Source: a virus
Virus record (IMG/VR): IMGVR_UViG_3300020428_000120
Coordinates: 1 to 20,788 of that record
Length of the DNA: 20,788 nucleotides
Direction: 5' to 3' (one strand)
The notes under the pieces were generated by a model. The model did no database searches, had not been told where the DNA came from, and was given only the letters and a program-made list of their open reading frames with translations. Each line of letters begins with the position of its first letter. The stretch's first letter is position 1. Shown one piece after another: positions 3,699-19,574 of the stretch. The translations under genes were made by a program, and so were the position numbers.

Positions 3699-4476
3699 AA
3701 TAATCAGTCAGCTTGAAATCATTGGGAACTGCTCTCCAATTTTCAATGCTCTTAATTTTATCTTTATCTGTGTACCAATGAATATAATTTAAATGTTTTC
3801 CGTCAGCATATATAGCCCCATTTTTCATCACGACACTGTTGGGATCCACATACTGTATGTCAGTCGAATGTATTCTTTTTATATTCTTAAATTCATGCAT
3901 AAGCACAGTTGGAACTAAATGCTCATCAATATATCTATTTGTAATATCTTTTATTAAACGATCAGCAGTCGGCAAATGATTGATAAGTCCTCGACTTCGA
4001 TCATCATTACGCATCATTACGAAATGTCCTGACGCATACCATAATCCTAATGGAGTGTCTGATTGAACTAGGTGAATAGCATCTCTTTTATGATAATTAC
4101 AAAAAAGATCAGGAGTGCCATTTGCAGGAACAGGGAAATTTTCAAAATTACCATACATAACATCAAGATCACCCCACCCCCAGTAGTCATAATCACGAAG
4201 CTCTTCCCTAAACATCTCACCATAAATAACTCTAAGATCGCAAAGTTTGTAGTAAAACCTAGTTTCTATTTTTCCAATAATCTTTTCCGCTTTGTTATAA
4301 ATATCATCAATTGTACATTTGTGTATTTTTATATTTGATGGTGCTTCCTGAATTTCAAAATCAGTAAATAATAAAACATCAAATGGTTGATTTCTTACTG
4401 TTGCTAAAAACAGAGATAAATAGTTACATTTATTCAAATCCCCAAAATGTGGTATAACTAAGCAAGCGTTATTCAT
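3688..4476 (-). CDS. Putative glycosyltransferase, DUF6625-like, 262 aa
   Basis: The protein opens with a beta strand and IPHFGDLNKCNYLSLFLAT, typical of a GT-A nucleotide-binding half. Around residues 76-109, KLCDLRVIYGEMF ... YDYWGWGDLDVMYG closely fits the conserved block of the DUF6625 glycosyltransferase-like family, in which the Asp-Leu-Asp (103-105) sits where a metal-binding DxD is expected. A later GHFVMMRND segment (about 150-158) is also typical. Length is normal for the group. The ATG overlaps the TGA of the 271-aa gene (ATGA), so the two are probably co-translated. Expected role: transfer of a sugar to a surface glycan or virion protein in the host cytoplasm; donor and acceptor cannot be read from sequence. 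Confidence 0.65.
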   Translation of the reverse strand: MNNACLVIPHFGDLNKCNYLSLFLATVRNQPFDVLLFTDFEIQEAPSNIKIHKCTIDDIYNKAEKIIGKIETRFYYKLCDLRVIYGEMFREELRDYDYWGWGDLDVMYGNFENFPVPANGTPDLFCNYHKRDAIHLVQSDTPLGLWYASGHFVMMRNDDRSRGLINHLPTADRLIKDITNRYIDEHLVPTVLMHEFKNIKRIHSTDIQYVDPNSVVMKNGAIYADGKHLNYIHWYTDKDKIKSIENWRAVPNDFKLTDYYEC

Positions 4477-15062: not shown

Positions 15063-15231
15063 TTTGTAATTTCACTCCCATAACCTCTTTAGTTTTAAAG
15101 ATTTTTTGTTTCATTCCTTTTAAAATAATTGGATTTAATAATTTGCTATCTACTAAACATTCTAGCTGATACCTAGTAACTCCTAACATATCCATTACCT
15201 CAGCCCTTCTTAAAAATGTCATTTTATGCAT
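15049..15231 (-). CDS. Small excisionase/MerR-type HTH protein, 60 aa
   Basis: The sequence MHKMTFLRRAEVMDMLGVTR ... LVDSKLLNPIILKGMKQKIF fits a winged helix-turn-helix of the excisionase/MerR type ('AEV...LGVTR..L..LV..G.L.P......Q..F...EV'). I chose ATG at 15229-15231, preceded by GGGGTGG about six bases upstream, instead of an in-frame GTG at 15249. It overlaps the terminase stop by eight bases and the portal start by 14. Placed between terminase and portal, it could bind DNA for packaging or regulate genes. There is no integrase nearby, so a true excisionase role is unlikely. Confidence 0.7.
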   Translation of the reverse strand: MHKMTFLRRAEVMDMLGVTRYQLECLVDSKLLNPIILKGMKQKIFKTKEVMGVKLQNEKS

Positions 15232-17068
15232 AGTATCCACCCCCCTCACTTTTCCATGTTCCTTCTGCTATATTATCACAGTCGCTTAAAAAAAAGTAAC
15301 GGCATACATCAATCGGATCTTTACAGGCTCCCTTGTTGCCATCTTCACCTGTCCAATTTTGTAAAGAGAAAATAAGGTTTTTGCATTCTTTGCTTACATA
15401 AAACTTCGGGCAATTCATGTAAGATATATCCTCATCTTCATTGTAGTCTAAAACATCATTAATTTTAGTAACACCATCTGAAATTATATCCCCTGGAGCA
15501 CATTCAAAATATACACCCATATCATCAAAATCAGTAAGCAAAGTAACAGGACGATCTTTCTCAATTCTTGGGGTACTTGCGGCTCTTGAATCCATAATTC
15601 TCTCTTGAACATTTTCTTCACTGCCATTTTGTTCACTCCATTTTTTAACAGCTTCAGATTCTTTAAGATCAGAATCAGGTTTATAATTTAAACAATCATT
15701 CCATTTTTCTAATCTAGCTATTTCCCTTTTAATTTTCCAAACACCAAAACCAAAAGGATCTTGAGCAGGACCAGTGCGACCATCTAATTTTTTCCCATCA
15801 GGCATTGCCCAAGGTCCAACTACACCAACCTCAGGAATCTCATATCCTCCCGGCCATTCTCTATATGCATAAATTTTGTCTTTAACTACTCTAAACCAAA
15901 CCATGTAAAAGTTTCTGCCTGACGATGGATCACAAACTAAAACATTCACTCCATTTTTAGGAATAGCATCTTGATCTACGCAATGCACTTTTGTATCAAA
16001 CTTCGGAAACCTAGATGCCATTGTTTTGTTTGCTAATCCGTAAAACCTTTCACGAATATACCAACGCTGTTTACCCCTAATAATATCTAAAACTGAACTA
16101 GGATTCCCATAAGGGTTATCAGAACTATGAAAAAAAGCTACAGCTCGCTTACCATCAGATCCCATACATTTCATCAATCTTGGTAAACGCTCAAATTTCC
16201 TTCCTTCAGGTACAGGCATTTGCCCACTTTTTCCATCTGCCCAATCTAAACATTTTTGTAAATATAGTGCGTGATCTTCTAATTGTTCACCTTCATCTTT
16301 CGGACATAAAAATGCAGTGCTGTCCTGCATTATTTCTGCTCCATCTTGAAACATTTTACAAGTTGGGCTGTAGCCTTTCACAGGCGTAAATGTAACGAGC
16401 ATCTTACTTAGCGGACTACGTGTGGCTAATCTCAGCTCAAGTGTTTCGACCCAATCTGGGGGTACAAGTTCATCTGCCCATGCGATATTAAGCTCACCAC
16501 CCTCAATCTTTTCCCTGTCCTGCTCGTAGTTTCTAAAAATGCATTCGCTGTGGTTATGCAAAACAAATTTAGAATCACTAAAGCCGTACTTTTGATTATA
16601 GGATATGTAAGCTACTTCAGTTCTTACTTTTTTACGCTGTTCAGGTGGCAAATATTTCCACATGAGGGGGTGTTGATATTCAACTGAATTTTGATTACTT
16701 TCATGAAAACACCAAGCTCTTGCACCTCTTACATACTGCAACATCTGCATTGTTCGCTTAGCCGCATATTCGCTTTTTCCTGCACGATTTCCCCCATTTA
16801 TTAGTAAAATATCAACAATTCTAGTAAATCCTAAAGCCAATCTTACTCTTTCACACCACTCTTGATCTAGCCAATCCCATGACAATAATGCGTCACAAAT
16901 TTTCCAAATGGGCGGTTCCCATCCTTTTCTTAAAGGATCAATTTTTTCATCAGCTATGACTTGCTCACGCTTGTGCATCAAATCTGCAAACGCTTCACTG
17001 CTTAAATCTTTTACTTCATCCAGTTCAGGAATTTTTAGTATTGGATGCTGTGTTGGCGTAAAACTCAT
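15224..17068 (-). CDS. terL: Terminase large subunit (packaging ATPase-nuclease)
   Basis: The 614-aa protein has the expected TerL order. Walker A is GGNRAGKS at residues 92-99. Walker B is LNIAWADE (193-200), with the catalytic Glu following the Asp pair region. The coupling motif is LVTFTPVKGYS (224-234). The C-terminal RuvC-like nuclease starts at VNVLVCDPSSGRNF, in which D380 would be a metal ligand. It cuts concatemeric DNA and drives it into the procapsid through the portal. The ATG has no Shine-Dalgarno sequence and lies four bases after a U8 run that ends a structured spacer, so expression may be controlled there. Confidence 0.9.
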   Translation of the reverse strand: MSFTPTQHPILKIPELDEVKDLSSEAFADLMHKREQVIADEKIDPLRKGWEPPIWKICDALLSWDWLDQEWCERVRLALGFTRIVDILLINGGNRAGKSEYAAKRTMQMLQYVRGARAWCFHESNQNSVEYQHPLMWKYLPPEQRKKVRTEVAYISYNQKYGFSDSKFVLHNHSECIFRNYEQDREKIEGGELNIAWADELVPPDWVETLELRLATRSPLSKMLVTFTPVKGYSPTCKMFQDGAEIMQDSTAFLCPKDEGEQLEDHALYLQKCLDWADGKSGQMPVPEGRKFERLPRLMKCMGSDGKRAVAFFHSSDNPYGNPSSVLDIIRGKQRWYIRERFYGLANKTMASRFPKFDTKVHCVDQDAIPKNGVNVLVCDPSSGRNFYMVWFRVVKDKIYAYREWPGGYEIPEVGVVGPWAMPDGKKLDGRTGPAQDPFGFGVWKIKREIARLEKWNDCLNYKPDSDLKESEAVKKWSEQNGSEENVQERIMDSRAASTPRIEKDRPVTLLTDFDDMGVYFECAPGDIISDGVTKINDVLDYNEDEDISYMNCPKFYVSKECKNLIFSLQNWTGEDGNKGACKDPIDVCRYFFLSDCDNIAEGTWKSEGGGYYA

Positions 17069-17079
17069 AATTAAAAAAA

Positions 17080-17156
17080 AGTTGGGCTACTGTTTCCTAA
17101 AGCAGAATAGAACATCGCTCGAACATGGTTCTCCCATGATACCATAACACCCAACT
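17080..17156 (-). ncRNA. Structured 77-nt leader element before terL (candidate)
   Basis: AGTTGGG and CCCAACT form a perfect 7-bp closing stem, extendable by a G-U pair. Inside, 17087-17110 forms a hairpin flush against it (CTA/TAG, CTG/CAG, TTT/AAA with two bulges). The rest can form either CATGG/CCATG with loop GAGAA (17124-17138) or AGAAC/GTTCT (17109-17113 with 17128-17132); these exclude each other. A run of eight U includes the last base of the stem. The shape suggests an attenuator or switch. A 24-codon frame (17071-17145) ending two bases before the terL ATG, or a 9-codon frame behind GGGAG, could be a leader peptide instead. Confidence 0.45.
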
Positions 17157-17160
17157 AAAT

Positions 17161-17382
17161 TCATTGTTCCCCCATGCGATGTTCTAAGTATTTCTCAACT
17201 ACATTGTAAACTGCCTCAGCAAGTTCCATTGCATTAAGATCACTTTCTCCCCCTCGATCCACATCCCAACCAACAAGTGTTTGCCCAATAATTTTCTGCA
17301 AAGCCATTGCTTGCCTAAATTTTCTTTGAGCATTTAAAATATTATAAGCTTTTGAACGATTTAATTCATTTTCTTCATCCAT
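17161..17382 (-). CDS. Uncharacterised small helical protein before terL, 73 aa
   Basis: A 73-residue, mostly helical, charged protein (MDEENELNRSKAYNILNAQR ... AEAVYNVVEKYLEHRMGEQ). The ATG is preceded by AAAGGA six bases upstream, a good ribosome site, which makes it one of the more secure small genes here. No HTH, zinc or membrane motif is visible. It stops just before the structured spacer ahead of terL. Since no small terminase subunit was recognised, this gene is a candidate on position alone; it is shorter than usual and the call is weak. Confidence 0.6.
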   Translation of the reverse strand: MDEENELNRSKAYNILNAQRKFRQAMALQKIIGQTLVGWDVDRGGESDLNAMELAEAVYNVVEKYLEHRMGEQ

Positions 17383-17435
17383 TCTATTTCCTTTCTCAAT
17401 CTTAGAACCTCATCCTGCAAATCCTGTATGTGCAT
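17361..17435 (-). CDS. Very short coiled-coil peptide, 24 aa (uncertain)
   Basis: The reading MHIQDLQDEVLRLRKEIEWMKKMN is a regular heptad-like helix that overlaps the next gene by 22 bases. AAGGGAG is directly against the ATG, too close for a normal ribosome site. The same frame can be read from ATG at 17573 to give 70 aa, but that largely overlaps the 85-aa gene in another frame and lacks a ribosome site. The coil composition looks real; start and expression are doubtful. Confidence 0.35.
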   Translation of the reverse strand: MHIQDLQDEVLRLRKEIEWMKKMN

Positions 17436-17667
17436 CTCCCTTGTGTAATTTATCTTTGTAGGTTTGTATAAATTTTTTTCTAGGGGAACAGAACGCACTG
17501 AAATCTGCCCAATTGCTGATAATAAATCGGAAAGCTTTATCGGCTGAGGAAATTTCGATGTGATCCAAATCATAACAATTGTCCGAAATTAAACCTATAT
17601 CCTGACAATACTCTAAGACTATTGTGGGGGGTAGCTTTTGCCTTTTGCATAAATTCTTTAACTTCAT
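17410..17667 (-). CDS. Uncharacterised protein after primase-helicase, 85 aa
   Basis: An 85-residue basic protein (MKLKNLCKRQKLPPTIVLEY ... FRFIISNWADFSAFCSPRKK). Its ATG overlaps the TGA of the primase-helicase gene (ATGA), the same coupling used across the window, and this favours it over the 70-aa frame that overlaps 17410-17573. No known domain is seen. A role in replication is suggested only by its neighbour. Confidence 0.5.
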   Translation of the reverse strand: MKLKNLCKRQKLPPTIVLEYCQDIGLISDNCYDLDHIEISSADKAFRFIISNWADFSAFCSPRKKFIQTYKDKLHKGDAHTGFAG

Positions 17668-19574
17668 TTTGCATAGATTATGGGCAACTCTCCTTTCCCT
17701 GTGTAATGCTGTGATTCTTTATGAAACCATAAATTACGAACAGGCTCTTCACCATTTTCCCTTTGTGCCAAAACCGCAAATGTTGCATCAGATTTATCTT
17801 TCCACTCACTATCATAAACAGACATATTTCCAGTGTTTACACCTTTGTAATAGCTTTCTTCTTTCGCTTTATTTCTCCAAACAACTACTACATTGTGAGC
17901 TATATTTGTTATATGAACACTACCTCGCACCATATGTTTATTTGGCCAACCTCTAGTTTCAGGTCGCTTCATATCAGGTTTTTTTGAATGTGCGACTAAA
18001 TGCACATGGACATTATATGTCGTTGCAAAATCACACAGCCTGTTCATCAAATGCTTTATTACACCATCCTCATCCTCAGGAATGTCTAGTCGCATTAAAG
18101 AATCTATCACAAAATGAGTTATACCATATTTTTTAGCGGCATAACTAAAAACTTCTATCACTTCTTCAGGAGTTGCTGTACCAACCTTGTCGTATATCCA
18201 AAAATAGTTTGAAGCCCAATTTAGACCAAAATCAAATTCTTGTTCGTCTGATGGTTTTAATTTTGCCAAGCCCATTTTTATGATCGCTTGCAAATTTTTT
18301 TCAGGTTTCATTTCAAGACTACACAAACAACTCCGCTTGTTATATTGCGTTAAATGTACCAACATAAAATTTAACAAAATAGTTTTACCATGCTTAGAAT
18401 AACCTGTCCAAACTGTGATCTCTCCTGGGCGAAACCTAAATGGAAAGTCACCACCAAAAGGAACAGGATCCCCTAACTTACTGTCATCACTAGGAAAAAA
18501 ACATTCCCATATTTCACTTCTGAAATCTTTAGCAGATTTTAAAGAATCAGGATCCATATCACTTGCTTCATTTAAAAGTGTTTCAGTAAATTCACTGCTC
18601 TCAAAACCCTTTTGAATAAATTCATTGGCATCTTTAATTCCATCAGGCCAATTAATCATTCGACATTTATCACGACCTAATCTCCTCGCTATTGATTCAG
18701 TTGCAGCTCTCCCTACTTCGTCTGAATCTCCTGCAAAAATAATTTCAGTATGCAAAGCGATCCAATTGTCATAATCATGCTCTATCCATTCTGAATTTGG
18801 GTCATTGTCACCATTTGCAACTTTTGCCCCAAACGGAACAGATACAGCAGGGTATCCCATGTCATACATAGTCAACGCATCCAGTTCACCTTCCGTTAAA
18901 AACATAGAAGATTGATTTTCAGGTATGGCAGGAATGCCAAATAAAACTTTATTACTTTTTGCGGTTGTCCGAATATAGTCTTTGTTGTCAGGGTCACGCC
19001 ATTTTAACATTTGTATTTCTCCCATACTGTCTATGAATGGAAATATTACACATAGGGGGGATTTTTTATCGTATGGATATTTTCCCTGACCAATACCATA
19101 AGCACGAATCGCTTCCTCAGATATTCCTCGTTCATCAGTCAACCATTCCCATGGTCTACTACCCTCCTCAATAGGCTTGAGAAAATCAGCTTCTTTTTCC
19201 GGCAATCTCTCCCTTTTAGGAGTAGGTGTTTTGTGACCTATGCTTTGTTTAAATTTTACTGACTTTGGCGATTTATAACCAACAAAATCAGATGCTTCCC
19301 TTAACGCTGATCTAAAATCAACTTTTCTACAAGCCATCCACAGCCCAATAATATCCCCATTTTGTGAGGTATCTGCATGGTCTATCCACATTCCGACTTT
19401 ATCGCCAAGTAAAGCTACCCTTAAACTACCTGTGTTTGCTGATCCTTTGGAAGAAATGTCATTTACATTACTTGCAAGCCATTCACCCCTAGATTCCTTG
19501 CCATTTGGCAAAAGATGACCACAAACTTCTTTTATTCGGTTGTTTAACATCTGTTTAATAACTGCTCCATCCAT
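17664..19574 (-). CDS. Primase-helicase (TOPRIM plus DnaB-like), 636 aa
   Basis: Two parts are clear (numbering from the alternative ATG at 19610). The TOPRIM primase has MFLTEGELDALTMYDMGYPA with E240 and IIFAGDSDEVG with D295/D297. The RecA-like helicase has Walker A TGYSKHGKT (402-410), a SLEMKP loop, Walker B ITHFVIDSL (497-505) and HLVAHSKKP (537-545) where the sensor lies. This is the T7 gp4 layout, but the N-terminal Cys4 zinc finger for template binding is absent. It unwinds DNA and may make primers; without the finger, primer synthesis is uncertain. I chose ATG at 19574 (GGGA six bases upstream, one base after the previous stop). ATG at 19610 would add 12 residues and overlap by 35 bases. 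Confidence 0.85.
   Translation of the reverse strand: MDGAVIKQMLNNRIKEVCGHLLPNGKESRGEWLASNVNDISSKGSANTGSLRVALLGDKVGMWIDHADTSQNGDIIGLWMACRKVDFRSALREASDFVGYKSPKSVKFKQSIGHKTPTPKRERLPEKEADFLKPIEEGSRPWEWLTDERGISEEAIRAYGIGQGKYPYDKKSPLCVIFPFIDSMGEIQMLKWRDPDNKDYIRTTAKSNKVLFGIPAIPENQSSMFLTEGELDALTMYDMGYPAVSVPFGAKVANGDNDPNSEWIEHDYDNWIALHTEIIFAGDSDEVGRAATESIARRLGRDKCRMINWPDGIKDANEFIQKGFESSEFTETLLNEASDMDPDSLKSAKDFRSEIWECFFPSDDSKLGDPVPFGGDFPFRFRPGEITVWTGYSKHGKTILLNFMLVHLTQYNKRSCLCSLEMKPEKNLQAIIKMGLAKLKPSDEQEFDFGLNWASNYFWIYDKVGTATPEEVIEVFSYAAKKYGITHFVIDSLMRLDIPEDEDGVIKHLMNRLCDFATTYNVHVHLVAHSKKPDMKRPETRGWPNKHMVRGSVHITNIAHNVVVVWRNKAKEESYYKGVNTGNMSVYDSEWKDKSDATFAVLAQRENGEEPVRNLWFHKESQHYTGKGELPIIYAK

Follow-up and report, generated by a model that had tools for sequence, protein, structure and literature searches.

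The window analysed here is the whole stretch of 20,788 nt of the IMG/VR virus record IMGVR_UViG_3300020428_000120. In this window a terminase large subunit-like gene (terL) is preceded by a structured spacer, and the question raised by the locus is what such a spacer does at the border between replication and packaging genes. The coding strand at the locus is the minus strand, and the order runs from the replication genes through a 73-aa gene and the spacer (17160-17069) to the terL-like gene. The initial annotation regarded the spacer as a switch-like attenuator of terL whose fold could be set by translation of leader peptides, and named a packaging site or a small RNA as alternatives. The 7-bp perfect closing stem and the flush inner hairpin on which it relied (P1 and P2 below) are present in the sequence, as are the run of eight U followed by AAUU and the terL ATG at 17068 (~12 nt after P1), and both proposed ORFs of 24 and 9 codons. 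The features of the locus, in the order of transcription, are as follows.

17161..17382, minus strand: upstream gene (73 aa), ending in a stop codon directly next to the element
17176..17186, minus strand: UAGAACAUCGC, end of the upstream gene, a window-specific 11-bp perfect complement of 17118-17108 (P3/L3)
17074..17160, minus strand: complete RNA element, as delimited by the covariance-model match (R1, 68.8 bits; R2, 47.5 bits); related elements are found upstream of terL in relatives
17150..17156, minus strand: P1 5' strand AGUUGGG, perfectly paired with 17080-17086
17141..17149, minus strand: conserved segment J1/2, UGUUAUGGU, from alignments (GUUGUGGU in class A, GAAUGGU in class B)
17124..17138, minus strand: P2 hairpin CAUGG-GAGAA-CCAUG, with a covarying stem
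17100..17120, minus strand: P3 hairpin GAGC...GCUU with a variable loop; 3/3 model pairs with two-sided changes
17087..17099, minus strand: conserved segment J3/1, UAGGAAACAGUAG, from alignments, including A17093
17080..17086, minus strand: P1 3' strand CCCAACU, perfectly paired with 17150-17156
17073..17080, minus strand: U8 run after P1, not conserved in the family
15224..17068, minus strand: terL-like gene (Pfam Terminase_6N below cut-off, E 0.0055)

The terL-like protein had no match in PHROGs, NCBIfam or PDB and only the sub-threshold one in Pfam; among annotated phages its sole match was in Phage C75C1 (27% identity). The 73-aa upstream gene had no family match. As had been noted, the terL start is devoid of an SD site, yet GGAG/GAGG/AGGA-type strings were present at just 6 of the 27 window starts checked, so that this feature is not special in the window. 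When folded alone, the spacer reached -21.1 kcal/mol (z -1.32), which is not significant, 21 of 200 shuffled sequences being at least as stable. Energy folding also predicted an extra short UGG/CA helix inside P1, and its bases are nearly invariant in the alignments.

A search with terL yielded seven viral contigs, and a motif related to the window element was observed upstream of terL in L001/L131, L002, L003/L004, L007, L139 and L006; the records of two further terL relatives, L136 and L138, gave no element match. Compensated P1 stems were seen among these relatives (GUUGGG/CCCAAC, AAUGG/CCAUU, GAGAAACG/CGUUUCUC and AAACA/UGUUU, the last in L007 vs AAACG/CGUUU in L003). The distance from the start of the element to the start of terL varied from 86 to 743 nt, and L003 and L004 have a 53-aa ORF in between. 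IMG/VR was then scanned with core patterns of two subclasses, class A and class B, which returned at least 120 rows each. Among the matches listed, the motif was present in almost every row of class A and in the majority of those of class B, and some rows, chiefly of class B, were chance matches without stems. In this way the same RNA, with altered sequence, was found in well over 100 viral contigs besides the terL relatives.

Two covariance models were built, R1 from 17 sequences with the window included and R2 from the class B search matches with the window left out of training; they score most members at ~30-86 bits. R2, trained on other sequences alone, matched the window at 17160-17074(-) with 47.5 bits (E 3.6e-10), and the match comprises P1, P2, P3 and the core. 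There is therefore strong support for a structured, functional RNA in the spacer. The common layout is a three-way junction with P1, GUU[G/A]UGGU or GAAUGGU, P2 with a GAGAN loop, P3, GAA[U/A]CA and P1', in total ~80 nt; the two conserved segments face each other as an internal loop.

The covariation analysis in related phages that the initial annotation had proposed revealed two-sided changes in 17/17 modelled pairs (67 distinct members), including 7/7 pairs of P1. In the same 67 members, covariation was 0.757 vs 0.199 for shuffled alignments, with no shuffle as high, and 0.106-0.163 for slid partners. Class B members taken by themselves also support the pairing. Ninety percent of the pair cells are paired in the family alignment, a figure somewhat inflated because the alignment was fitted to the modelled structure; the slid and shuffled controls are still far lower. 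G-U pairs are retained in the stems, as expected for RNA. The P2 loop reads GAGAN in all 138 distinct members where it could be read, P2 of class B mostly begins with a non-standard pair (G-A or A-G), and P1 extends up to ~16-18 pairs (L139, L310). A contact between the P2 and P3 loops was also considered, as visual inspection of the terL relatives suggested plausible kissing pairs (GAU/AUC, GAA/UUC), and it was dropped because the complement is missing in L182, L217, L222 and others.

The two subclasses differ in the core, class A having GUUGUGGU with GAAUCAG and class B GAAUGGU with GAAACAAAG. Two core positions are coupled, the one preceding UGG and the fourth of GAA-N-CA: they read G and U, respectively, in class A, and A and A in class B. 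Twelve members picked by neither pattern showed the same coupling, seven with A/A and five with G/U, with zero exceptions. In the window the variable core base A17145 in J1/2 is coupled with A17093 in J3/1; the window thus shows the core double change, since class A surroundings (GUU, CAGUA) carry the A/A combination.

These comparisons demonstrate, at the level of sequence, that the spacer encodes a member of an uncatalogued RNA family of ~80 nt, and we consider the existence of this family practically certain. Rfam 15, at gathering and permissive thresholds, gave no match for the window, L121, L165 or the class B elements; the best sub-threshold match was Ms_IGR-2 (16.6 bits vs 45 needed), whose pairing differs. 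No description of this RNA family was found in the open-access literature. The family is probably undescribed, and we do not put it higher because the search covered only Rfam 15 and open-access papers. The novelty lies at the level of the RNA family, and its mechanism may prove a known one. The family is apparently restricted to phages: the class A pattern returned 20 rows from bacterial genomes, none with a member-like score (the highest was 23.5 bits), and R2 returned nothing from 797 bacterial genomes, which is weak evidence of absence given the strict filters and the lack of a positive control. Among isolated phages, a weak class-C-like match was seen in two Microcystis phages only (22.2 bits, E 0.0046), and no convincing copy turned up in phages of Bradyrhizobium and Xanthomonas that carry a related lysozyme.

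An intrinsic attenuator or leader-peptide switch dedicated to terL finds its arguments in the window itself, where P1 is followed by U8 and part of P3 can pair with the upstream gene. Across the family, the U-run, the peptide and the competing pairing are all unconserved. A U-run of at least five follows P1 in just 7 of 44 distinct members, so the stem plus U-run is not a conserved feature of the relatives; some members lie within long ORFs, and adjacency to terL is not conserved. No short ORF is conserved either. The L131 element has no ORF start of at least nine codons, and L003 and L007 differ in the P3 loop by an indel of one base, which shifts the frame and leaves the fold intact. Across the relatives, the ORFs are absent, frameshifted or different. 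As no terL-, peptide- or terminator-specific feature is conserved, the attenuator fails as a general account; the element is not a terL-specific attenuator, and we regard that reading as very improbable. Concerning the mutually exclusive pairings, the 11 perfect bp between 17186-17176 and 17118-17108 are real and beat 200/200 shuffles for the window, and among the members tested they have no counterpart in relatives. Upstream anti-P3 pairing was rejected as a family trait (family mean 5.54 vs 5.50 for shuffles), and a switch is possible only as a window-specific alternative pairing.

The positions of the members were then compared. Of the 40 distinct members with an upstream ORF, 23 have an upstream stop codon no more than 30 nt from the core; a start codon lies within 50 nt of the core in over half of the members with a downstream ORF, and 20 of 44 distinct members have an ATG no more than 20 nt after P1. 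The downstream genes differ widely and none is constant; a different terL, which passes the Terminase_6N cut-off, lies directly behind the L240 member. Terminator-like hairpins stand directly behind the element in L389, L402, L369, L374 and L385. Several members lie at module borders, e.g. between glycosyltransferase and primase-like genes, between replication genes and terL, and, as a weak match in a Microcystis phage, in front of terS-terL. In freshwater phages the element lies between a glycosyltransferase-9-like gene and a primase-like gene (our naming, without a Pfam match), or a gene is inserted before the latter. The weak family-like element of the Microcystis phage L401 (OR083034.1) is in the intergenic region before the terminase genes, at 17340-17780 (-), which also contains a number of terminator-like hairpins with a TCGTCTWAC-like motif behind each of them.

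The proximity to terL or terS in several phages, and flanking genes that vary as at a recombination linker, could point to a site of packaging or recombination that acts as DNA. The G-U pairs kept in the stems speak for RNA, and many members are far from packaging genes, which also weakens the packaging-site alternative of the initial annotation; we consider a DNA site very improbable.

Other members are associated with tRNAs. In L374 the order is tRNA-Met, other structured-looking units, element and terminator; in L385 a tRNA precedes the element; and in L307/L384/L393 a tRNA-Pro is located 3 nt behind it. The region L374:4260-4640 (+), like others in L309, L369 and L385, looks like a phage ncRNA operon with a tRNA-Met with encoded CCA, GUGUGAY...GCCGGGAGAGACCGGC units, a class B element and an intrinsic terminator; the GUGUGAY...GCCGGGAGAGACCGGC units resemble another structured RNA. 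Most records have a single copy, and tandem copies, subclass A then B, occur sometimes, with three copies in a row in L383. In the L163 tandem (3747-3923, minus strand) the class A and class B elements are 5 nt apart, and the spacer contains a start codon and a short ORF extending into the second element.

Further members are embedded, in frame, in portal genes of the Mu type (Pfam Portal_Mu), at the following positions.

L310, 344-423, minus strand: in-frame portal member
L335, 6135-6218, plus strand: in-frame portal member
L379, 6364-6449, plus strand: in-frame portal member

The three portals share 23-49% pairwise identity, and the element occupies the same inter-domain linker in each. The peptide encoded there by the RNA resembles [PA]NG.QG[DE], ETK comes later in the sequence, and P1 of the L310 member has 18 perfect pairs. 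This variety of contexts, i.e. stops, starts, terminators, tRNAs, tandem copies and the in-frame portal linker, argues for an autonomous RNA module.

Such contexts are compatible with several functions. A stable small RNA that is cut out of phage transcripts and acts in trans, e.g. as a decoy for a host or defence factor, would account for the apparent ncRNA operons (L374; L385; L307/L384/L393), the tandem copies of differing subclass and the inconstant downstream gene. The small-RNA alternative of the initial annotation is a live rival, and the main one, by virtue of the tRNA contexts and tandem copies; most members, however, are inside protein operons or ORFs with no evident promoter of their own, and the tight packing of stop, element and start suggests action within the mRNA, so we find this reading rather doubtful. 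A switch for the gene that follows, either a riboswitch or a translational one, in which subclasses A and B would recognise different ligands, appears unlikely. The conserved internal-loop core with its subclass-specific coupled bases, the tandem copies and the ATG close after P1 would suit it, but no conserved expression platform was seen, the downstream genes are diverse, and members occur inside ORFs or directly before terminators or tRNAs. A self-cleaving ribozyme is quite unlikely: the core is compact, with nearly invariant loop bases and variable stems, and copies occur in tandem and in tRNA arrays, but the in-frame portal members would cut their own message, P1 is very long in L139 and L310, and no Rfam ribozyme matched.

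We favour action in cis on the element's own transcript via a general factor, a reading that we hold at somewhat less than even confidence. It is preferred because of the stop/start packing, the terminator-like hairpins, the module borders and the portal linker sites. The RNA would fold during transcription, and its conserved core and GNRA-like loop would be recognised by a general factor, which may be the transcribing RNA polymerase, an RNA-binding protein or a nuclease. In the likeliest concrete version, a transcript-control element of the put/EAR type at gene-module borders (here replication/packaging) would help the polymerase to read through or would set a processing site of the polycistronic RNA. 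By our estimate, about half of the weight within the cis reading would fall on antitermination and about half on processing or stability. Counting against it, the tRNA-adjacent and tandem members fit a processed stable RNA equally well, no terminator is readily recognised near many of the members, and some members are located away from module borders.

The put RNAs of HK022, which are phage-borne, and the EAR element of B. subtilis are processive antitermination RNAs. They share with this family a structured RNA inside operons and action in cis (inferred here), a works-like resemblance only: location alone is compatible with a put-type RNA, the junction with P2/P3 and GAGAN loop sets this family apart, and Rfam scans found no homology to put or EAR RNAs. 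The lambdoid boxB is a hairpin with a GNRA-like pentaloop (GAAAA or GACAA) in phage transcripts. Our GAGAN hairpin is similar, but it sits in a larger conserved junction, and no N-like protein was identified. The packaging-associated RNA of phi29 is likewise a phage RNA with a three-way junction and a GAAUGGU string, as in class B J1/2; it differs in layout and size, most members here are not by packaging genes, and no match to a phi29-type packaging RNA was obtained at any Rfam threshold used. In its strong covariation and lack of an assigned function, the family is like the orphan structured RNA motifs obtained by comparative genomics (e.g. PMC2864571, PMC8040213). It differs from them in being restricted to phages as far as tested, in occurring also in frame in ORFs and in tRNA arrays, and in being outside Rfam 15.

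More tentatively still, these elements may form a phage-exclusive RNA class of at least two subclasses with a coupled core, a cassette moved among intergenic, tRNA-array and in-frame sites across unrelated lineages and acting via a general host component, for example RNA polymerase, a nuclease or a defence factor. The in-frame portal and tRNA-array members stand out as unusual; the core changes that distinguish the subclasses point to a specific recognition, which could be found biochemically. If these interpretations are correct, a common structured RNA of environmental phages went uncatalogued, and it would offer a testable handle either on how phages control the flow of transcripts from module to module or on a phage small RNA of a new kind.
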